Positions 3,637 through 45,751 of a stretch of DNA of 64,000 nucleotides are shown piece by piece. The stretch's first letter is position 1. Each line of letters opens with the position of its first letter. The position numbers were made by a program, and so were the translations under genes. The notes under the pieces were generated by a model. It made no database searches. It saw only the letters and a program-made list of their open reading frames with translations, and was not told the origin of the DNA. The stretch is taken from contig JACAVV010000014.1 in the NCBI GenBank assembly GCA_024648695.1, forward strand, positions 62,001 to 126,000. Reading direction: 5' to 3'. The stretch is from Nitrospina sp. Lineage in GTDB: Bacteria; Nitrospinota; Nitrospinia; Nitrospinales; JACRGP01.

Positions 3637-4229
3637 AATTTGCGCATGACGCCGATGACGACGCCTTGAATTTTCAGGTCACCATTTTTGACGATGATGG
3701 GTTTCATATCGGGATTCGCCGGTTGCAAGCGCACTTGGTCTTTTTCTTTATAGAAACGTTTCAGCGTAGCGTTTTCGTTATCGATCAGCGCAACCACCGT
3801 TTCGCCGTTGTTGGCGTGCTGACGTCTTTCGACCACCACGTAATCGCCGTCGCGGATGTGGTCGTCGATCATGGAGTTGCCTTTCACGCGCAACACGAAA
3901 ACATCGGGATCGTCATAAGGCAAAAACGACACGGTTTCGCGGTTCTCCAGAACTTCGATGGGCTTGCCAGCGGCGATGTGGCCCAGCACTTCGTATTCGC
4001 GTTTCAAGGCACGGCGCGGGTCGTTCCCCAATTCGATGGCCCGGCTGAGGTGTTGTTGGCGCTGGATCAGTCCTTTGTTCTCCAGATGCGTCAAGTGCTT
4101 GTGCACCGTCGCGGGAGAACTGAGTTCGAACTGTTTGCCGATCTCCGCAATGCTCGGCGCGTAGCCCTTCGCCTCGATATGGTCTTTAATGAACCGGTAA
4201 ATTTCTTCCTGACGCTTCGTCAAATGCAT
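3633..4229 (-). CDS. lexA: LexA SOS repressor
   Basis: This 198-residue repressor has an N-terminal winged helix-turn-helix (about 1-65, with P-S-I-A-E-I-G-K-Q-F near 25-34) and a C-terminal S24 peptidase fold. The self-cleavage bond is Ala87-Gly88 in H-I-A-A-G-K-P. The nucleophile is S119 in G-N-S-M and the general base is K157 in A-T-L-K-R-F. All catalytic parts are intact, so RecA-stimulated autocleavage is expected. The ATG has a GGGAGG ribosome site about 10 nt upstream. A strong promoter with an overlapping inverted repeat precedes the gene, and dinB follows it. The recognition helix region differs from E. coli LexA, so a different operator is expected. Confidence 0.96.
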   Translation of the reverse strand: MHLTKRQEEIYRFIKDHIEAKGYAPSIAEIGKQFELSSPATVHKHLTHLENKGLIQRQQHLSRAIELGNDPRRALKREYEVLGHIAAGKPIEVLENRETVSFLPYDDPDVFVLRVKGNSMIDDHIRDGDYVVVERRQHANNGETVVALIDNENATLKRFYKEKDQVRLQPANPDMKPIIVKNGDLKIQGVVIGVMRKF

Positions 4230-4247
4230 AAAGGTGTTGCCTCCCAA

Positions 4248-4268
4248 AAAGCTGTCGTCTTCAGCTTT
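4248..4268 (-). promoter_or_regulatory. Candidate LexA operator
   Basis: A perfect inverted repeat, AAAGCTG, 7-nt spacer, CAGCTTT, lies between the lexA -10 box and the ribosome site, where a bound repressor would block transcription. It contains CTG/CAG half-sites like those in known LexA boxes but is not the E. coli consensus. Assignment rests on position and symmetry. Confidence 0.55.
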
Positions 4269-4270
4269 CA

Positions 4271-4299
4271 AGTATAGGCGAAAATAAAGCAAAAATCAA
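4271..4299 (-). promoter_or_regulatory. Sigma-70-type promoter of lexA
   Basis: On the minus strand TTGATT (4294-4299) and TATACT (4271-4276) are spaced 17 bp apart. The start of transcription would fall inside or next to the inverted repeat at 4248-4268. Confidence 0.7.
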
Positions 4300-4321
4300 G
4301 CGGGCGATGCCCGCAGGAAGT

Positions 4322-4452
4322 TCCGGCCCGGCCCACGGCCGGGAGAGACACCGGTCCATAATGAGTGAATTTATGCAATGATTCACCGGCCGGGGAGGGC
4401 CAGAGTTTTTCATTAGATAGCGGTGCGGCTGGGCTCGCTAATGCTCACGCGC
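4322..4452 (-). repeat. Dispersed ~127-bp repeat, copy 2 (inverted)
   Basis: Read on the minus strand, this copy has the same block order as copies 1, 3 and 4: the GCGCG start, GAGCCCAGCCGCACCGCTAT, the CCCTCCCCGGCCGGTG core, CCATTATG-like DNA and the GGCCGTGGGCC end. Together with copy 3 it brackets the small gene at 4498-4773 as an inverted pair. It sits 22 bp upstream of the lexA -35 box. Confidence 0.8.
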
Positions 4453-4497
4453 CGCAAACGGTTTTTCAATGACTTAATTTCTAACAAGAAAAACTGC

Positions 4498-4773
4498 TCA
4501 AGAACCTTTTTTCTTATAGGTTCCTTTGATCATGCGGTAGGCGGGACGACCGTCGTTGTGGATCATGGGAGCGCCGATGAGCACTTCGCATTGAGGGCAT
4601 TTCAGTGCAGGAAAATCGCTTTTGTGCCGGCTTTGTTTGTATTGGGCGAGATCTGCTGGTAACTGGATTCGATCCAGATACGCCCGGATCAAATCTCCGG
4701 ACCCTTCCTTTCGATACCGCATCACATGAATATCGCAGGCTTTACAATAAAGGTCTAAAAAACGGGAGGCCAT
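4498..4773 (-). CDS. Small zinc-ribbon-type protein, function unknown
   Basis: This is a 91-residue basic protein with two CxxC pairs (C10-x2-C13 and C59-x2-C62) spaced as in a zinc ribbon, and a lysine-rich tail. Zinc binding is inferred from spacing only. Its partner and role are not evident. The gene is isolated between inverted copies of the dispersed repeat, an arrangement that could reflect joint movement. It lies downstream of the MMPL exporter on the same strand. Confidence 0.65.
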   Translation of the reverse strand: MASRFLDLYCKACDIHVMRYRKEGSGDLIRAYLDRIQLPADLAQYKQSRHKSDFPALKCPQCEVLIGAPMIHNDGRPAYRMIKGTYKKKGS

Positions 4774-21478: not shown

Positions 21479-22546
21479 TCAAGGAGATTTTGCACAGCGA
21501 AATCCAAAACTGTTGTTACGGACTTCAGGGGTGAAAAAACTTCGGTTGAAGGTAGGTGCGCTCAATCCGCATCCATAGGACAAGCAATCGAACCAGGACC
21601 CCCCTTTGAGAACTCTTTTGTCCTTGCCATACTCCGGACTGGGGACGGTGTTGCCAGGATGCGGTAAATAATAGGCATTCACCCACTCCCAAACATTTCC
21701 GGACATGTCGTAAAGCCCATAGGGACTTCGGCCTTGCGGATAGGATCCCACCGGTTCGGTTCCCGTGGAACCTTTATAGGGATTATTTGATTTGTCCTGA
21801 GTCCATTCATTTCCCCAGGGATATATCAAGCCATCATTTCCACGTGAGGCCTTTTCCCACTCTTCTTCGGTGGGAAGGCGTTTTCCCGCCCATGCACAGT
21901 AATCATGGGCATCGAACCAATTGACGTAAACCACCGGATGCTTGCCCTTGCCTTTGGGAATGTTTCCGTTCGGCCAATGGTACGGCGTTTCGCGCTCAGT
22001 AGCCTTGGCAAATTTGGCGTAATCTTCATTGGTAATTTCATACAGGTCGATAAAAAACGCTTTCGTGCTTTCCAGATACTCCGGGGCCTCGTCATGCCAC
22101 CGTTCATTGGAACCCATAATGAACTCCCCCGCAGGCACATAGGCCATTCCGGGTATGGAAGGAACGGGCTTTTTTTCAGTCTCTTCGGTAGATTCTTCCT
22201 TCTTTTCCGATGCGGGACTCACTGCTTCGGTGGAAGCCAATTGAGTGTCCGGATTCCTGACTGTAGGCGGTTTGTCTATCGATTTAAAAGACACGGGAAG
22301 AAAGGGCGTGAAGGGCTTTTGTGATATTAGCCCAATATGGCATCCTTTGCATTCCTGCTTTCCCTGTTTGTCCTTTCTTGCTTTAATTATGTTCTCCGCC
22401 TGGTGGCACGCAGTGTTGCATTTCAAACCCTCCTTGGTGGGATGTTTGAATTCTGAAAACGCGAGCGCATGACCCTTCAAAAAACCAACAAGGAAAACCG
22501 ACACACAAAGGATTGACTTAAGTGAAAATTTCAAAAATATTCTCAT
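21479..22546 (-). CDS. Exported SUMF1/formylglycine-generating-enzyme-like protein with N-terminal heme-type motifs
   Basis: This 355-residue protein has a signal peptide (about 1-29) and a short cysteine region with C43-x3-C47-H48 and C66-x2-C69-H70. Next comes a charged, Thr/Glu-rich linker (about 95-130) and a full FGE-sulfatase domain (about 132-353). That domain shows P-A-G-E-F-I-M-G-S, R-L-P-T-E-E-E-W-E, S-G-N-V-W-E-W and G-F-R-C. C321 and C326 have a C-x4-C spacing like the copper-binding pair of true FGE, though shifted by one residue relative to the G-G-S motif. Known members either generate formylglycine or have other oxidase or binding roles. The heme-type motifs suggest a redox role outside the cytoplasm. 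No sulfatase is adjacent. Confidence 0.85.
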   Translation of the reverse strand: MRIFLKFSLKSILCVSVFLVGFLKGHALAFSEFKHPTKEGLKCNTACHQAENIIKARKDKQGKQECKGCHIGLISQKPFTPFLPVSFKSIDKPPTVRNPDTQLASTEAVSPASEKKEESTEETEKKPVPSIPGMAYVPAGEFIMGSNERWHDEAPEYLESTKAFFIDLYEITNEDYAKFAKATERETPYHWPNGNIPKGKGKHPVVYVNWFDAHDYCAWAGKRLPTEEEWEKASRGNDGLIYPWGNEWTQDKSNNPYKGSTGTEPVGSYPQGRSPYGLYDMSGNVWEWVNAYYLPHPGNTVPSPEYGKDKRVLKGGSWFDCLSYGCGLSAPTFNRSFFTPEVRNNSFGFRCAKSP

Positions 22547-32715: not shown

Positions 32716-35700
32716 ATGAAATTTTCAAATTTGTTTCTTGTTCTCAGTCTTTTTACTTTTCTATTCGCACCAAATGTATATTCCGCTGACGATTTAAAAG
32801 ACGATCGCATCACCCAGGCCATCCAGGTCACCACCAATCCGGGAGAGGATTTTGCTCCCACCATTTCCCGGGACGGCAAATACCTGATTTATGTCTCCGA
32901 CAAGTCCGGCAATCTTGATTTGTGGCTCAAGTTTCTGGGGCCGGGTAGCCATCCTCCGGACCGGCAACTAACGTTCCACAGCGCGTCGGACAATTCACCG
33001 GAATTCAGTCCTGATGGTAGTAAAGTGGTTTTTGTATCGAACCGGTCGGATCCCAGAGGAGATATTTATGTTCTTGAACTGGGTTCCTTTTCGCTTTCCA
33101 CCGAAGAGAAATCGGAGGAAAAGACCAAGGGCGGCCTCAGTTTTTTGGGCTTGTCCTCACTGCAGAGTAAGGATAGCGAAGCCCAGCGTGCCAGCGGTTT
33201 GACCCGCCTGAGCCAAGCGGGGCCGGAAGACCTGGATCCCACGTGGGACCCTTCGGGACAGGCGGTTTATTATTCATCTCATAAACCCGGTCAGGCCGAG
33301 AAAAAAATTTATCGCGTCGCTTTGTCAGGCGGATCGGAAACCCAAGTGACCACACAGGACGGGGTCAGTCCCGCCGTATCTCCGGACGGCCGCTATTTGG
33401 CATTTATTTCCAAAAAGGAGGACGCATCGGGAAACATCTGGCTGAAAGACCTTTCCAGCGGTCAGTTGACGGCTTTGCACAAGGGACCGGAAATCGAGCT
33501 GTCTCCCCACTGGTCTGAGGATGGTCGGTATATTTATTTTACCCGCTACCAGGATGACACCAATTTCGACCAGGATTTAACTATTGAAGACCGACCCAGT
33601 ATCTGGAAAGTGGGTCTGAATGGTTCGGTGCCAACCAAGTTCCTGCAATTGACGGACAGTTCCACGTATGACCTGTTACCGGAAATCCATGGCGACAATA
33701 TTTATTTCACGTCCCATCGCCGAACCGGGATTGATATTTTCCGGCTTCCCAAGGAAGGCGAGCTCCCCGCCCTGACCGATTATGGGCAAGCCCTGCAATT
33801 GGCCAGTGACCTGTGTCCTGATGAAAAGGCCTCCTACACCTGTGTGTTGATTTACAAAGATATCCTGAATGAATTCAAGAATGAAGAAGACCTGGCGCGC
33901 ATTCGCTATAAATTGTCCAAAACCTTTTTCAATCTGGGCAATGCCTTTTCCGCCAAGTTCCAGTATGGCCGCATTTCTAAAGAACACCCAGACGATCCGG
34001 TTTATAACGGACTCGCTGAAATTGAAATCCTTATTCTGGAAGTGGAGGAGACCCGAAAGGAAGGGATCACTCTGTATAGAAAACGGGTGGAGCAGGCTTT
34101 GTCCGAAATCGAAGCAATAGCGGCCAAATACAGGAGTCAGCCCAGGGTTTTGGCCCGTGCGTTCCTGGAAAAAGGAAACTTTAATTTTGAACTGGACCGG
34201 CAGGATCTGGCACTGGGGTTTTACAAAAAGGTCATTCAGGAATACGCTCGTCAGCGGGAAACAGCGGCAGAAGCGGCTTTTTCGAGAAGTAAAATTTACA
34301 CCACCATTGGCGACACCGATAAGGTGGTTGAAGCTTTCGTAGACGTGGTGCGCAATTATTATGATGTGAAACTCTGGACCGCTAAAGCGATCAGCGAAAT
34401 TCTGGCTCTGTTCGAAAAGGAAGCCTCAGTCGAAAAGAAGGTTTCCAACCTTCAAAACCTGACCCGGGAATACAAATCTTTACCCATTTTGGCCGCGGCG
34501 GTGCAGAACCGGATCGGTCAGTTGTATTATGAAGGCGGGGAAAATCTTCTCGCTAAAGAGGCGTATCAGAAAACCATCAGCAACTTTGCGCAGGCGCCTT
34601 TGGAAAAATTCAACGCCCTCTTTGCTTTGGCTCAAATCTATGCGGAAGAGGAACAGTTCGAAAAAAGTCTGGATCTTTACCAGCAGGTGGTGCAGACGCC
34701 ACAGGGCTTCGACGAAAAATTACGTTTGGCCACCTTGGGCTATATTCGTAAATCCCTGAAAAAAGGCAAATGGGAAATCAATGTAGGCGAAGTGAAGCTG
34801 GCCTATAAAACGTTTCTCAAGCTGATCGACTTCAGTCCGCAAAATGTGGAAGCACATCGCGGTTATGTGCAATCGTCTGCCATGCTGAAGAAGGTGGATA
34901 AGGCGATCGATTTTTACAAATCCCGGCTCCAGCAAAACCCTAAATCTGCAGTGGACCATTATTCGTTAGGTCTGGCTTATACTTACCTTTCGCCTCCCGG
35001 ACTGGACATGGCGGAGAAGGAGATCAACCAGGCATTGGTCGTCAACTCCCAGGAAACTTATTACCATCAAACCCTAGGTTGGGTGTTCGAGCAGAAAGAA
35101 CGTTTGCATCCGGGCAAGGAATACCTGGAAAAAGCTTTGCAGGAATATTCCACCGCCCTCGCTTTGAATGACGAAAACATCAGCCCGGAAAACGAGGCCG
35201 ATCTGTTTCTGAACCTCGGTAACGGCAACCACCTGTTGCGCAATCATCTGGAAGCTCGCCATTATTATCAGAAACGGAAAAAGAGCAAAGTCGAATTTGT
35301 CAACGCGGACCGGGAAATTATTTATTACCAACGCTTCGGCGAAAGTGCCTTTAAAGCCGGGTACCCGGATGAAGCGGTGGAGCATTTTAAAGAGGCTCTG
35401 GCGCTTCATAATAGAAAGAAGGAACCCGACCTTAAACGCATTGCGGAAATGAACGATCGTATCGCATTGGCTTACCAGGACAGCAACCAGTATGCTAAAG
35501 CGGTCGAGTATTTTTCCAAGACTCTGGAACTGCATCGAAAAACTGGCAACACGGAATCGCTTTCGAAAGCTTTGCGCAACATTGCGAATAACCTGTATTC
35601 CCTCAATGAGCGCCGTGGGCGCAAGGACACTCAATCGCTGAACATGGCGCTCAGCCATTATTTTCAGTCGATAGAAAATCTCGAAAAATATGGAGTCGTT

Positions 35701-38700
35701 CAACAGGAGGTCAAAAAAGAATCCAACGCTCTGGTCAACATCAATGTGGAAACGGGGCTGGACGAAAATGCCTCCCAAGCGGCCCGGGGATTCAATAAAG
35801 AGGGTGAGGAAAAGCTCATCTTCAATTATGTCGGGAAGATTTATGGCGACTTCGGTGAATATGACCGCGCCATCGATTATTTTCAGAAGAAATTGGCCCT
35901 GGTTCCGGACAATCTCAATCCGGAAAAAGACATTCCTGTCATTTTGGAAAAAGCTATCCTGCTCAACCAGATCGGGAATTTCCACTTTCAGGGGGGCGAG
36001 TACGACCGGAGTGGAGAGTATTTTAAGGAGTCCTACGCGCTCAGTAAATCCATCAACAACCGGCAAGGGGTTGCCGTCAATGCGGCGAATCTGGGCCGAC
36101 TCCTGTTGACCAAATCGGAAATGATTCCGCGTGAACAGTTCCGTAGTTCTATTCAAGACACCTTGAATTTTCTTGAGGAAGCGCTGGACATCATTGTGCA
36201 AGCCAAAAACTTTGCCAGTCCGGAATATGCTGTGTACCTGAATAACTATCTCGGCATCTTTTATCACTATATGGGAGTTCATTTTTCAGATAACGGGTCC
36301 GGCCAATCTAGAGGACCCACGACCGGCCCGACGAAGGAGCAGTTTCTTGCGGCTCTTGGATCTCTACAGCAGGAATTCGGTTACTTTCAAAAGTCCATTG
36401 CTTATTTCAACTCTGCTCTCGAACTGGTTCACGCCAATATTGAGGGTCCATTGGCCAAACGATTGGAAACCGCGCTTCAGCAAAACCTCAGGCTCACCCA
36501 TTCCAAAGCGGACCTCAAAAACCAGAAACCGAAGAAGTTTGCCGATACCGGTGGTTTGAATTCCAAATGGCAATTCAAGTATCTGGAGTTTTTAGAGGTT
36601 CCGGAGTCCAGCAAATTGAGCGTGCTGAAAAATGCAGAGGCTGAATTGTCGCGCTTGCCTTATGGATTGCTTCCCAATACCAGCACCTCGCGGGTGATGA
36701 TGGAAGAGTTGTATTTTTCATTGGCCCAACAACTTTTTAAGGAAAAAAAATTCAGCGAAGCCTTTTACTATTCTGAAAGAGGATTGCAACAGATTCTCAT
36801 CTCCTACAGACAGAATATGGAACTGAAGTTCAAGGATGAAGTTCGCGTCGGATACTACGATGAATTTATGGAATATCCGGCGCAAATCAGGGATCTGTCG
36901 AAACAGATAGCCGTGGGTGCGGGCAATTTTTCCAATCGGTCCGAGATTGATGGCCTGCTTGAGGAGTATCAGGACCTCATTTCAGTGGTTAAGGAAGAGG
37001 ATCCGGTTTTTTCCCAATTGTTCTCTCCAAGCATTCCGGAGTTGAGCCAGGTGCGGGCACTTTTGCGGCCTGGAGAAGTGATCGTCAAATATCAAAAAGT
37101 GTACGACCGGATTCTGGTTTGGGTGGTTTCCCGGGACCGTGTGTTTGGTGGAACCATTTTACCCGATCCACAATTGTTTGGTCTTATTTCCAGGATCACA
37201 CACAGTGATTCGGTGGTCCAAGGCCAGGATATCGAAGCTTTGTCCAATGCCTTGATCACGCCCCTGGGAGGCACGCTTGGGCAATCGACCTCGGTCTATC
37301 TGTTGGCGAACGGTGGTCTGGAATTTTTACCGTGGAGCGCTTTGAAGCTGAATGGGAAAGCACTGATAGATCACTATGCGATCACTCACGTTTCTTCGGT
37401 GGCGCAGTTCATCAATTCGCACCGCAAGAAGAATCTTTATAATTCTCGACTGCTGTCGGTGGAGCTTTCGGAGGCCGATGCCAAGTCCATATCTCAGCCC
37501 TTTGCGTCTTCCATAAACCTTTCGGAAGATAAAAGCACACAAAAGGAATTCATGAAATCGATGGGGCAGTATGCCGTGGTCCATATAGAGAGCAAAGCCC
37601 AATTGGGCCGGTTGGGGTCGGGCAACTCCTACATCAATCTCACTCAGGCAAGAAACCGTTTCGAGCGCATGACTCTGGAAGATCTCTTTGAAAACCCAGT
37701 TGAGTCCCATTTCATTGCCCTCAACCATGTGGAGTATGAAAAGATGCCCGACCTGGATGTGTCGCCCACAGCGCCCATGGTGCATGCCCTGGACTACATG
37801 GGGTACCCCGGCATTCTCATGAAGTTCGGACCCAAAAACGAGGCCACGCATCAGGAGTTTCTGAAACTGTTTTACCAGAATTTTCGTAAAGGCAATCCGA
37901 CCGAGGCCCTGCGTATTGCACAACTGGCGCTTCGGCAGAAAAACCCGGGTTCGTATGCCTGGACCCGTTATCGCTTTTTTGGTTTTCCGGGAATGAACGA
38001 GCAGGAAAAAAACATTTTTGCGAAAACCCATTTTAAGGAAAATGTCAAAAAAGGCATCAAGGCCTTTTCCAAAAAGAAATGGAACACGGCTATCAGCTAT
38101 TTTGAAAAGGCCCTGGTTCTGATCGATTTGATGGAGAACCAAAATCAGGCTCCTCAGCTTTACAAAGTTCTCGCACAAGCGGCCTACAATCAGGAGGACT
38201 ACCAAAAGGCAATTAAGTATCAAAAGGAGTTGGTTGCATTGGCAGACCAAAAGGGCGATCCCGAGGAACTGGCAGGAACGATTTATTTTCTGGGCATCCT
38301 GTATTCCCGGGCGGAAGAGTTTCCCAAAGCTGTGGAAAAACTGGAACTGGCCCTGGATATTTTTCAGGAATATGAAATTCTCGACAAGCTGGCGGAAAGC
38401 TACAGTGTCCTGGGAATCGTAAAAGAAAATGCCCTGGACTACGACAAAGCTCTGGACGCCTTCAACGCTTCCCTGAAAATTAACAAGGAAATTGGAGAAG
38501 ATTTAAACCGTGGCAGGGAGTTGCGTCGAATCGGGCGTATTCATTACCTGCGCCTGAACAATTACCCCAAGGCACGCGATTATTTTACGCAGGCCTACAA
38601 TTTGTTCAAGGAACTCGATCAGGTCGATCAGGTGGTTGAGACCTTGCTGGAGTTGGGTCTGGTCGCGGAGAAACAGAGTTTGTTTCCGGAAGCTTTGAAA

Positions 38701-40860
38701 TTTTATGCCGAAGCGCAGGCCCTTGCAGAATCCAGCGACTTTCCTGCTTCGGTTTCCAAGGCCTTGCTTTATCAGGCCAACACCTATTGGTTTCAAGGGG
38801 ACTACCAGAACGCTTTCAAACGCCAGACACAATCATTAAACATCGCTGAAGAATTAAAAGATAAACGCCAGCAGACGTTCATCTACAACACCCTTGGCCT
38901 GATTTACTGGACCCTCAACGATTCAGTACGCGCTCTGGAGAATCTGAATCGAAGCCTGGATCTTGCCAGGGAAATCCGTTCTCCTCTCGACATGGCATCG
39001 GCCTACAACAACATCGGACTGGTGTACCGCAAGGATAAGGATTATCCGCGCTCCATTGAGTTTTTTCAAAAGGCGCTCGACAAGGATGTTGAACTGAAAT
39101 CCAAGTGGGGACAAGGTTACACCCACCGCAACCTGGGTATCAGCTATTTGCGCATGAAACGCCTGGACCAGGCTCAGGAGCATCTCAATAAGGCGGTGGC
39201 GTTCAGTACTGAAATCGGCAACCAGACCAATCTCGTAAAAGCCAAGCTGGAACTCGGTAATTTGGCAATGGAACGTGGTCAGTGGGATTCTGCGATCGGG
39301 GTTTTTCAGGAAACCCAGGCCCTGGCCACCCAATACAACATCAAGGAGGTCATTTGGCGGGCGCACCGTGGCAATGGGTTTTGCCTGAGAAAACTGAACC
39401 GACTCAGTGAGGCCGCGCAATCTTACCGCACTGCGGTACAGGTAGTCGATGAGTTACGCGCGGCAATCAAGGTAGAGGAATTTCAGAACGGCTTTCTCAC
39501 CGACAAGCAGGATGTGTATAAGGAGCTGATCCTTCTCCTGCTCGACCAGGGAAAAGTTGAGGAAGCTTTTAATTTCGCCGAACGGGCCAAATCCAGAAGT
39601 TTCATCGATCTGCTGGGCAATCAAAAGATCAGCTTGAAGAACGATATCAGCCAACAGCTTTACGACAAGCTGATTGGGCAAAAACGCCGAATCCGCCTGG
39701 CAGAAGTTGAATTGGCCAAGGCGGAAGGCGACGAAAATAAAAAACGCCTGCGAACTGAGCTGATTTCCCAACGCAATGGCTACCGCGACCTGTTAATTCA
39801 GGCCAAAGCACAAAGTCCGCAGATTTCCAGCTTCGTCACGGTAGAGGCGATCACTCTTACGGAATTATACAAAATTCTTGAAAACGACGTTTCCCTGGTC
39901 GAGTACTTGATAACCGACGAAGAATTGATTGGCTGGGTGATCAGCCAGGGCCGCATACAGGTCGTGCGCACGCCGGTTAAGGAAAAAGATCTGATCGTCT
40001 TGATCGAAGATTACCGCAAACGGATTCAACAACTGGCACCGGTGGAGGATCAATCCAAAAAGTTGTATCAGTTGGTGATTCAACCGCTTGAACGGTATTT
40101 TGCATCGACCCGTGTGCTTGGGATCATCCCGCACGGTCACCTGCATTACGTGTCGTTTTCCTCTCTGCGGGATCAGGAATCTTATCTGGTGGAAAAGCAT
40201 CCCCTGTTTTATTCCCCAAGCGCATCGGTGTTGCAGTTCACCTTTAACCGCAAATTTGAAAAAAAAGGTAAAATAAAAGTTTTGGCACTGGGCAATCCGG
40301 ATTTGCAGGATTTTAATTACGACCTGCCCCTCGCCGAACTGGAAGCCAAATCGATCAAATGGGATTTTCCCGAAATCGATTTGTTCACTCGCAAAGAGGC
40401 TACCGAGAGTTGGCTTCAGGAAAATATCGGAAAATATCAAATCATTCACATCGCCTCGCATGGGGAGTTTGATCCGGTGAACCCGTTGTTTTCCTCGTTA
40501 AAGCTCACTGCCGATGAGTTTAACGACGGCAGTTTTGAAGTCAACGAAGTGTTTTCGCTGGACATCAAAGCCGACCTCGTGACCTTGAGCGCGTGCCAGA
40601 CCGGACTTGGAGAAATTTCGGGCGGTGATGAACTGGTGGGACTGAACCGGGCTTTCATTTACGCGGGCACGCATGCCCTGGTGTCATCCTTGTGGCGCGT
40701 AAGCGATATTTCAACGGCTGTTCTCATCAAACACTTTTACAGAAATTACACGAGTGCAAATAAATCAGAAAGCCTGCGTAAAGCCCAACTGCTGGTGAAA
40801 CGTTTGTATCCCCATCCCTCGTACTGGGCCGGGTTCAACCTGACAGGGGATTACCGGTAG
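32716..40860 (+). CDS. Giant exported TolB-propeller/TPR protein with two CHAT domains
   Basis: This protein has 2714 residues. Signal peptide 1-24 (A-P-N-V-Y-S-A). Residues ~35-360 hold TolB/PD40 propeller repeats such as S-P-D-G-S-K-V-V-F-V-S and S-P-D-G-R-Y-L-A-F-I-S. TPR units fill ~390-1250. Residues ~1448-1755 look like a CHAT domain with lost chemistry: H-I-E-S-K has K1627 where the catalytic His belongs, and A-L-N-H-V has V1672 in place of Cys. A second TPR array covers ~1762-2240. The C-terminal CHAT domain (~2381-2714) is intact, with H2582 in H-I-A-S-H-G-E and C2627 in S-A-C-Q-T-G, ending in Y-W-A-G-F. CHAT domains are caspase-like cysteine proteases. Export makes this one unusual. 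Its target is unknown and no partner gene is adjacent. Confidence 0.9.
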   Translation: MKFSNLFLVLSLFTFLFAPNVYSADDLKDDRITQAIQVTTNPGEDFAPTISRDGKYLIYVSDKSGNLDLWLKFLGPGSHPPDRQLTFHSASDNSPEFSPDGSKVVFVSNRSDPRGDIYVLELGSFSLSTEEKSEEKTKGGLSFLGLSSLQSKDSEAQRASGLTRLSQAGPEDLDPTWDPSGQAVYYSSHKPGQAEKKIYRVALSGGSETQVTTQDGVSPAVSPDGRYLAFISKKEDASGNIWLKDLSSGQLTALHKGPEIELSPHWSEDGRYIYFTRYQDDTNFDQDLTIEDRPSIWKVGLNGSVPTKFLQLTDSSTYDLLPEIHGDNIYFTSHRRTGIDIFRLPKEGELPALTDYGQALQLASDLCPDEKASYTCVLIYKDILNEFKNEEDLARIRYKLSKTFFNLGNAFSAKFQYGRISKEHPDDPVYNGLAEIEILILEVEETRKEGITLYRKRVEQALSEIEAIAAKYRSQPRVLARAFLEKGNFNFELDRQDLALGFYKKVIQEYARQRETAAEAAFSRSKIYTTIGDTDKVVEAFVDVVRNYYDVKLWTAKAISEILALFEKEASVEKKVSNLQNLTREYKSLPILAAAVQNRIGQLYYEGGENLLAKEAYQKTISNFAQAPLEKFNALFALAQIYAEEEQFEKSLDLYQQVVQTPQGFDEKLRLATLGYIRKSLKKGKWEINVGEVKLAYKTFLKLIDFSPQNVEAHRGYVQSSAMLKKVDKAIDFYKSRLQQNPKSAVDHYSLGLAYTYLSPPGLDMAEKEINQALVVNSQETYYHQTLGWVFEQKERLHPGKEYLEKALQEYSTALALNDENISPENEADLFLNLGNGNHLLRNHLEARHYYQKRKKSKVEFVNADREIIYYQRFGESAFKAGYPDEAVEHFKEALALHNRKKEPDLKRIAEMNDRIALAYQDSNQYAKAVEYFSKTLELHRKTGNTESLSKALRNIANNLYSLNERRGRKDTQSLNMALSHYFQSIENLEKYGVVQQEVKKESNALVNINVETGLDENASQAARGFNKEGEEKLIFNYVGKIYGDFGEYDRAIDYFQKKLALVPDNLNPEKDIPVILEKAILLNQIGNFHFQGGEYDRSGEYFKESYALSKSINNRQGVAVNAANLGRLLLTKSEMIPREQFRSSIQDTLNFLEEALDIIVQAKNFASPEYAVYLNNYLGIFYHYMGVHFSDNGSGQSRGPTTGPTKEQFLAALGSLQQEFGYFQKSIAYFNSALELVHANIEGPLAKRLETALQQNLRLTHSKADLKNQKPKKFADTGGLNSKWQFKYLEFLEVPESSKLSVLKNAEAELSRLPYGLLPNTSTSRVMMEELYFSLAQQLFKEKKFSEAFYYSERGLQQILISYRQNMELKFKDEVRVGYYDEFMEYPAQIRDLSKQIAVGAGNFSNRSEIDGLLEEYQDLISVVKEEDPVFSQLFSPSIPELSQVRALLRPGEVIVKYQKVYDRILVWVVSRDRVFGGTILPDPQLFGLISRITHSDSVVQGQDIEALSNALITPLGGTLGQSTSVYLLANGGLEFLPWSALKLNGKALIDHYAITHVSSVAQFINSHRKKNLYNSRLLSVELSEADAKSISQPFASSINLSEDKSTQKEFMKSMGQYAVVHIESKAQLGRLGSGNSYINLTQARNRFERMTLEDLFENPVESHFIALNHVEYEKMPDLDVSPTAPMVHALDYMGYPGILMKFGPKNEATHQEFLKLFYQNFRKGNPTEALRIAQLALRQKNPGSYAWTRYRFFGFPGMNEQEKNIFAKTHFKENVKKGIKAFSKKKWNTAISYFEKALVLIDLMENQNQAPQLYKVLAQAAYNQEDYQKAIKYQKELVALADQKGDPEELAGTIYFLGILYSRAEEFPKAVEKLELALDIFQEYEILDKLAESYSVLGIVKENALDYDKALDAFNASLKINKEIGEDLNRGRELRRIGRIHYLRLNNYPKARDYFTQAYNLFKELDQVDQVVETLLELGLVAEKQSLFPEALKFYAEAQALAESSDFPASVSKALLYQANTYWFQGDYQNAFKRQTQSLNIAEELKDKRQQTFIYNTLGLIYWTLNDSVRALENLNRSLDLAREIRSPLDMASAYNNIGLVYRKDKDYPRSIEFFQKALDKDVELKSKWGQGYTHRNLGISYLRMKRLDQAQEHLNKAVAFSTEIGNQTNLVKAKLELGNLAMERGQWDSAIGVFQETQALATQYNIKEVIWRAHRGNGFCLRKLNRLSEAAQSYRTAVQVVDELRAAIKVEEFQNGFLTDKQDVYKELILLLLDQGKVEEAFNFAERAKSRSFIDLLGNQKISLKNDISQQLYDKLIGQKRRIRLAEVELAKAEGDENKKRLRTELISQRNGYRDLLIQAKAQSPQISSFVTVEAITLTELYKILENDVSLVEYLITDEELIGWVISQGRIQVVRTPVKEKDLIVLIEDYRKRIQQLAPVEDQSKKLYQLVIQPLERYFASTRVLGIIPHGHLHYVSFSSLRDQESYLVEKHPLFYSPSASVLQFTFNRKFEKKGKIKVLALGNPDLQDFNYDLPLAELEAKSIKWDFPEIDLFTRKEATESWLQENIGKYQIIHIASHGEFDPVNPLFSSLKLTADEFNDGSFEVNEVFSLDIKADLVTLSACQTGLGEISGGDELVGLNRAFIYAGTHALVSSLWRVSDISTAVLIKHFYRNYTSANKSESLRKAQLLVKRLYPHPSYWAGFNLTGDYR

Positions 40861-44346: not shown

Positions 44347-45138
44347 TCAAGACATTTTGAAATAGAAAAAAATACCTGCGGTAATCATCACAGCCCCCAG
44401 AAAACGCCCTCCTTTGGGTCCGTAAGGCAGAAGTTTTTCCAGAAGCACAAACAGGGTCAGGATTCCGATCCAAATAAGGTTCATCACTCCTCCTACAAAC
44501 AGGAGGCTCATGATCAACCAGCAACACCCCAGGCAAAACGAACCGTGGTGCACCCCCATTTGAAACGCGCCGAGATTGCCTGAACGCCAATGCCTGGAAA
44601 TGAATTGTATTGGAGACCGGCAATGCACCAAACACCTTTCTTTAACGGGGAGCCATTGATAGATTCCGGCCGTCACCAGTAAAATAGCCGCAAGCGTTCC
44701 ACTTTTTGCAACCATCATAGGCGAAAGCAAAGACAGGGTATCCAGCCCCCACTGTGCCAGAGTGGCGACCATACTAAACAGAAACCACATCACCAGGTAT
44801 CCGAAAACGAAAGCGCTCACGGGAGCAACGTGCATTCCCTGGCGGGCCGATTTTTTTAGCACTGCGGCATAAATTAAAACCGTGGGGGTTATGGAAGGCA
44901 TCATCATTCCGACCATCATGATGGCCCACATCAAAAACATCATCAAAAAATATGTAGCGTCCCATTCCGGCGAAGGTATCGATTTCATACCACCTTCTGT
45001 GTCCATTGTGGCAACTATGGAAACCAGATAAACCCAGGATAAAAGTGTGACGCCAAACAGGGAAACAGAGATCGCCAGAATGTCACGTTGAGGAAGGTTT
45101 TTAAAAAAGGACATGAATGGATCAGCGAATGATTCCAT
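44347..45138 (-). CDS. DUF2182 membrane protein
   Basis: This 263-residue integral membrane protein has about six helices. It contains the DUF2182 features W-A-I-M-M-V-G-M-M-M-P-S (about 71-82), C-L-V-H-C near 168-172 and H-H-G-S-F-C-L-G-C-C-W near 195-205. The Cys/His/Met-rich membrane motifs suggest binding of a soft metal such as copper; this is inference. Its start overlaps the end of the DUF1326 gene by 17 nt, a pairing that recurs in bacteria. Confidence 0.85.
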   Translation of the reverse strand: MESFADPFMSFFKNLPQRDILAISVSLFGVTLLSWVYLVSIVATMDTEGGMKSIPSPEWDATYFLMMFLMWAIMMVGMMMPSITPTVLIYAAVLKKSARQGMHVAPVSAFVFGYLVMWFLFSMVATLAQWGLDTLSLLSPMMVAKSGTLAAILLVTAGIYQWLPVKERCLVHCRSPIQFISRHWRSGNLGAFQMGVHHGSFCLGCCWLIMSLLFVGGVMNLIWIGILTLFVLLEKLLPYGPKGGRFLGAVMITAGIFFYFKMS

Positions 45139-45751
45139 CCTGATTCATATGGAGAACATTGAACTGGCCATAGCTGTGTTGCAAATCCAGTTCGATTTCG
45201 GACATCACTCTGGAGTTGCCTTCCCCCATCTCAGCATAAGTGTATTCAAACCCCTCGGGCAAATGAATTCCTTTTCGAGACTCCTTGCCGCTATGCGGAT
45301 CGATTAAGGGAGTACCGGTAGATTGGCCTAAACCCTCAATCTTAACCTGGGCGTTTCGAGATTCAACATCGATGCTGATATCGATGGGAGCGTAACGGGT
45401 GGGATGTACTTTGGACATAGTGCTGTTAAAAATAAAAAACGATGTTGCGGGGGAGGACGATTCTCCATGCGCGATTTTTCGAAGAGCCTCGCGTTGATCG
45501 GGACTGGCCTTGTCGTCAATAATCACCTGCATTTGACCATTGCCTTCGGCAATTTCTCCGGGCCATTTCATAAACGAAACGAATGAGAGGTTGTTCAGGG
45601 AAATGTCGTTAAAATGGCCTTCATCAATTTGAAAACTGGCAACCGCTTCACAATAACCGTGAGTGGAAGGCGCGTTAAATTGACAGGGACAGCCGTAATC
45701 ACAATTGCAATTGGCAAACTCGCTTCCTTTAATCGTCCATTTAGCTTCCAT
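45122..45751 (-). CDS. DUF1326 protein
   Basis: This 209-residue soluble protein has the DUF1326 N-terminal cysteine cluster N-C-N-C-D-Y-G-C-P-C-Q-F (about 14-25), continuing to H-G-Y-C near 31-34. The cysteine density points to metal binding. It is encoded in overlap with the DUF2182 membrane protein and the two probably work together. Function of the family is not established. Confidence 0.85.
   Translation of the reverse strand: MEAKWTIKGSEFANCNCDYGCPCQFNAPSTHGYCEAVASFQIDEGHFNDISLNNLSFVSFMKWPGEIAEGNGQMQVIIDDKASPDQREALRKIAHGESSSPATSFFIFNSTMSKVHPTRYAPIDISIDVESRNAQVKIEGLGQSTGTPLIDPHSGKESRKGIHLPEGFEYTYAEMGEGNSRVMSEIELDLQHSYGQFNVLHMNQDGIIR

Follow-up and report, generated by a model that had tools for sequence, protein, structure and literature searches.

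The usual annotation for proteins with a SUMF fold is FGE-like or nonheme-iron. In FGE, an Arg-rich stretch after the second cysteine of the cysteine pair is typical. To our knowledge, no EgtB, SenA, PvdO or GldK-PorK protein carries c-type heme. The available text of PMC12123546 describes the physiological reductant of FGE as still unidentified. Among c-type heme motifs, CX3CH is an atypical variant that PMC6295460 (available part) records in homologues of ImcH, and the available part of PMC10734462 counts it as heme-binding. Searching titles and abstract starts of the open-licence literature with combinations of terms, we found no publication on a fusion of an FGE/SUMF fold with c-type heme; the one paper returned by a combination that included Nitrospina deals, by its title, with immunity domains. 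Term searches of the main text returned no mention of formylglycine or sulfatase in PMC3578206, which describes the genome of Nitrospina gracilis, or in PMC8026999.

Here we describe a gene of Nitrospina sp. whose product, judged from its sequence, is predicted to be exported and to join a diheme cytochrome of the c type to a domain with the FGE fold; it is probably a redox module in which hemes are wired to a thiol or copper site. The bacterial family to which it belongs is large and apparently undescribed. This SUMF branch occurs across several phyla, is nearly fixed in one order and appears to consist of heme proteins.

Architecture and fold of the protein

The gene lies in a stretch of 64,000 nucleotides (the window). 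The original prediction placed it at 21479-22546, which is correct, and left its strand unstated; this strand is the minus one, and the plus strand has stops. The translation and the Pfam search reproduce the remaining layout given there, that is, C-x3-C-H and C-x2-C-H motifs, a linker, a complete FGE-sulfatase domain and the numbering of C321 and C326, and the N-terminus does look like a signal peptide. The features are as follows.

21479..22546, minus strand: whole gene, 355 aa with an ATG start, encoding a predicted exported diheme FGE-fold protein with an orthologue in 60/64 genomes of the source order (Nitrospinales, the order of the window's organism)
22460..22546, minus strand: putative signal peptide at the N-terminus, roughly residues 1-29; the model has a hydrophobic helix at 2-27
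22403..22420, minus strand: first heme-type motif CNTACH (CX3CH), residues 43-48, with C43, C47 and H48
22337..22351, minus strand: second heme-type motif CKGCH (CX2CH), residues 66-70, with C66, C69 and H70
22157..22336, minus strand: unconserved linker, residues 71-130; pLDDT below 50 at 73-111, aligning poorly among orthologues
21488..22156, minus strand: FGE/SUMF1-type domain, residues 131-353; Pfam PF03781 at E=2.2e-55, fold of FGE, EgtB and CalU17 at Z 27-29
21542..21604, minus strand: family-specific loop, residues 315-335 (GGSWFDCLSYGCGLSAPTFNR), identified by orthologue conservation and holding C321 and C326

An AxA cleavage site near residue 29, read by eye, is plausible. Eight cysteines follow the signal peptide. 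Four belong to the heme motifs, C217 and C351 are kept in at least 90% of a broad SUMF alignment, and the pair C321/C326 is special to the diheme family.

The FGE-type fold of residues 131-353 is supported by several comparisons. The match to PF03781 (FGE-sulfatase) scores 188.5 bits against a cut-off of 23.3 and covers positions 2-255 of the 255 in the profile. The predicted structure (mean pLDDT 81) recovers the FGE fold, matching FGE, EgtB and CalU17 chains with rmsd 1.9-2.9 over 216-222 aligned residues. By sequence the closest PDB entries are human SUMF2 and SUMF1 (best 1y4j, E=3.7e-34). In NCBIfam, the matches to EgtB, SenA, GldK, PvdO and OvoA all fall far below the curated cut-offs.

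The cysteine pair of the diheme family is a C-x4-C following GGS, as in human FGE, and it aligns one residue past C336/C341, in a loop modeled at a block-mean pLDDT of about 64. In the printed alignments this loop is two residues longer than that of FGE, and the Arg-rich stretch after the second FGE cysteine is absent (CG[IL]S[AS] in the family, CYRYR--CAARS in SUMF1). Within the loop, C321, Y324, C326, G327, S329 and N334 each occur in 0-14% of 64 paralogues; D320 is another of these loop residues that are almost absent from the paralogues. For annotation we propose a two-part signature: CX2-3CH...CX2CH near the N-terminus, together with GGS-[FWY]-x-[DN]-C-x2-Y-x-C-G.

Conservation of both parts in a bacterial family

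In a search of 41 genomes, the orthologue scored E 1e-127 or better, against about 1e-56 or weaker for other SUMF genes, and was missing only from G004. One copy with a single in-frame TAA (L027 in G033), an assembly error or a pseudogene, was excluded from the 39 aligned orthologues, and another (L026), whose frame continues upstream, was trimmed by 230 N-terminal residues before alignment. Across the 39/39 intact orthologues C43, C47, H48, C66, C69, H70, C321 and C326 are invariant, as is the loop 315-335 except for A330, and the linker is hardly alignable. This invariance, and the presence of the gene in 60 of the 64 genomes of the order, indicate that the layout of two heme motifs plus cysteine pair is not due to chance.

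Relatives occur in 2/13 other genomes of the class (G041 and G076), each carrying the cysteine pair as well as the heme pair of the N-terminus. A contig scan added seven further such proteins in six loci from Deltaproteobacteria, Gammaproteobacteria and Chromatiales MAGs, one locus (L066) holding two of them close together. By profile search the family is present in 46/117 relatives of one deltaproteobacterial MAG and in 28/144 relatives of one gammaproteobacterial MAG, and one Nitrospirae MAG (the genome of L070) also has a member. Another member, L028, has a WER variant of the motif pattern.

The original prediction had proposed a search for homologues sharing both parts, and a large family does keep them together. 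We scored 300 non-redundant SUMF ORFs with a motif-blind profile built from residues 131-312, a region free of both features. The best-domain scores split into 109 ORFs at 278 or more and 191 ORFs at 242 or less. All 103/103 uncut high scorers have both heme motifs and the cysteine pair, and 0/191 low scorers have either; the six one-sided high scorers are all cut: the open frame of four begins right at the edge of the locus, and that of the other two continues past it. Residue frequencies come from a set of 103 proteins, from which seven duplicates were removed along with eight members that are partial or cut by a contig end; since this set was chosen by its motifs, its 100% values at motif residues hold by construction, and the motif-blind profile is the non-circular test. 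At the level of sequence, the architecture, the strict co-conservation of its parts and the fold are shown. In a tree the diheme family is a single clade against 15 paralogues, with support 99/92, several of the paralogue branches being long. All members descend from one ancestor; the two parts occur together because they were inherited jointly and retained by selection, and were not gained independently.

The source order has a strong expansion of SUMF-fold genes: each of the 41 genomes gives 13-34 matches, and G000 gives 34. Reading the SUMF genes of G000 in 30 loci, we found the pair or the heme motifs in no other gene. Outside the window, G000 also holds a decayed partial copy (G000:C9:9261-9578; L021 about 4075-4582) comprising the 3' 107 codons and downstream flank, with 86% nucleotide identity over 504 bases, an in-frame stop and an altered cysteine loop.

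Gene neighborhoods

In most genomes of the source order the gene and lplA are transcribed divergently, nuoN, dtd and an FG-GAP gene lie close by, and the downstream neighbor varies. Comparing neighbors across these genomes, we found no operon in the window, and a cytochrome or SUMF gene is adjacent in 0/36 loci of the order. Elsewhere in the window, on the minus strand at 44347-45751, a cysteine-rich protein (CNCDYGCPCQ) sits beside a membrane protein, a pair that by eye looks metal-related, and 32716-40860 encodes an exported protein of 2714 aa with apparent propeller and TPR-like repeats, also read by eye.

In deltaproteobacteria a mono-heme cytochrome gene lies directly upstream in 25/28 loci, and in the clusters of this group SUMF paralogues without heme motifs or cysteine pair are adjacent or one gene away. 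In gammaproteobacteria such a heme-free and pair-free paralogue is the next gene downstream in 17/26 loci. One deltaproteobacterial clade has a recurrent cluster (L214-L222, L068) with a triheme cytochrome (TIGR04257), an NHL propeller, a four-motif cytochrome, a PpiC/SurA-type isomerase and a mono-heme cytochrome, continuing with the diheme FGE-fold gene, a spermine-synthase-like protein, a SUMF lipoprotein, a large protein and a TPR protein. The large protein (650-690 aa) has no Pfam or NCBIfam match and we read it as an outer-membrane barrel; the cluster may be an electron conduit. At L064:1826-8558 the diheme FGE-fold gene occurs with a cytochrome and three SUMF genes. The cluster of four SUMF genes at this locus is followed by a cytochrome, by a protein of the COX1 family and by an AAA ATPase, which we read as NO-reductase-like.

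Heme-type motifs

The first motif is CX3CH throughout the source order (39/39 orthologues and four further genomes of the order) and in G041. Outside the order it is the canonical CX2CH in 59/60 members, which supports c-type heme, and there the two motifs are 14-17 residues apart. The source genome encodes cytochrome-c assembly proteins, and conserved CXnCH motifs, as expected of an exported c-type cytochrome, are found in 39/39 orthologues. Cytochrome profiles in Pfam stay below cut-off: Cytochrome_C7 gives 13.8 bits against 24.8 (E=0.05) for this protein, and Cytochrom_c3_2 gives 17.6 against 25 for a deltaproteobacterial member. The family alignment has no second conserved histidine near each heme as a candidate sixth ligand. 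H203 in the FGE domain, present in 99% of the family and 27% of the paralogues, could be a heme ligand, which is a guess.

Proposed function and alternatives

Our preferred reading, to which we give a little less than even confidence, is an exported electron-transfer protein in which two hemes are combined with the invariant cysteine pair as a second redox site, exchanging electrons with cytochrome c. Near the N-terminus, two c-type hemes a short distance apart would be joined by a flexible linker to the FGE-fold domain, and the pair in its extended loop would act by thiol/disulfide exchange or by thiolate-bound copper. Electrons would travel by way of the hemes between this cysteine site and a cytochrome c that is soluble or lipid-anchored, a partner that in deltaproteobacteria would be the cytochrome encoded just upstream. 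We infer heme attachment, redox activity of the pair and the cytochrome partner. The electron-transfer reading is favored by the 39/39 invariance, the 103/103 against 0/191 split, the single clade at 99/92, the CX2CH of 59/60 members, the upstream mono-heme cytochrome in 25/28 loci, the multiheme cluster, the assembly proteins and the CX3CH of ImcH homologues (in the available part of that source). It is weakened by the single ancestry of the family, the absence of extra conserved histidines, the sub-cut-off cytochrome models, the 0/36 adjacency in the source order and a possible structural disulfide. The original prediction of an extracytoplasmic oxidase survives in part. Its exported union of c-type heme sites with an FGE-fold domain, conserved as a unit, stands, the heme half being supported by the CX2CH of the outside members, the assembly proteins and the upstream cytochrome gene. 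Its copper-oxidase half is conjectural; the pair is a C-x4-C as in FGE but aligns one residue past it, in a loop that is two residues longer and has no Arg-rich stretch.

In the periplasm C321-C326 could be a plain structural disulfide, and the FGE-fold domain a non-enzymatic docking or binding scaffold through which the diheme cytochrome is bound to SUMF-fold lipoproteins or to an outer-membrane partner. We regard this as possible, if doubtful. Structural SUMF-fold proteins do exist (PorK of the T9SS ring matches our model at Z 25), and heme-free, pair-free paralogues adjoin the gene in 17/26 gammaproteobacterial loci and lie beside it or one gene off in the deltaproteobacterial clusters, one of which also has the barrel-like protein, but the entire pair loop is near-invariant across several phyla, which is beyond the needs of a disulfide. 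Quite improbable, in our judgment, is a heme-fed enzyme of the FGE type, in which the pair binds Cu(I) and uses O2 to oxidize a cysteine in an exported protein, while the hemes give the two electrons that FGE needs. The FGE fold, the C-x4-C and the missing reductant of FGE (PMC12123546, available text) speak for it, and COX1-family proteins (E 1e-50 or better) in 27/30 tested deltaproteobacterial carriers make O2 or NO chemistry possible there; COX1 is, however, equally common in non-carriers (18/20), the pair and its loop depart from FGE as described, and no sulfatase bearing [CS]xPxR is present. The original prediction had seen no sulfatase gene nearby, and indeed both sulfatase-fold proteins of the source genome (about 97% complete) sit on another contig; across that whole genome neither has the [CS]xPxR of a type I sulfatase substrate, other substrates being possible. 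Finally, the two sets of Cys-Cys-His, separated by 17 residues, could bind zinc or iron-sulfur instead of heme, in keeping with the low cytochrome scores; against the CX2CH pairs, the export signal, the cytochrome neighbors and the assembly machinery, we give this very little credence.

We also looked for ties to particular metabolisms. A link to nitrite oxidation was rejected: a strong match to TIGR03478 (E 1e-30 or better), which we take to be NxrB-like, occurs in 21/64 genomes of the order against 60 with the diheme gene, and carriers such as G022, G007 and G059 (96-97% complete) have no such match. A link to oxygen respiration in deltaproteobacteria gave no signal in the COX1 comparison, which sampled 30 of 46 carriers and 20 of 71 non-carriers.

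Beyond the electron-transfer reading, we think it unlikely, though not negligibly so, that the family is a class of self-wired redox enzymes, in which an FGE-fold cysteine pair holds copper or cycles between thiol and disulfide with electrons moving through a pair of c-type hemes in the same protein. Were the chemistry FGE-like, the family would offer a natural example of how a site of the FGE type receives its electrons. The heme-fed version is attractive but unproven; given the unidentified reductant of FGE (available text of PMC12123546), a heme donor fused to the FGE fold makes a wired version directly testable.

Comparison with known systems

The protein shares with FGE (SUMF1) its fold (Z about 28) and a C-x4-C near a GGS motif. 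FGE differs in having no diheme N-terminus, a loop shorter by two residues, a pair offset by one and an Arg-rich flank, and no sulfatase of the source genome bears the FGE target motif. SUMF2 (pFGE) and the other SUMF-fold paralogues share the domain, 1y4j being the best PDB match by sequence, but they have neither a cysteine pair at that place nor heme motifs (0/191 SUMF ORFs outside the family). EgtB, SenA, PvdO and GldK-PorK have the same domain and fold, with NCBIfam scores far below cut-offs, and differ in their N-terminal parts. Cytochrome c7 and other small multiheme cytochromes with doubled CXXCH have the same two closely spaced motifs; from these the diheme FGE-fold protein is set apart by a sub-threshold match, by the lack of a second conserved histidine per heme and by the enzyme-type domain fused to it.
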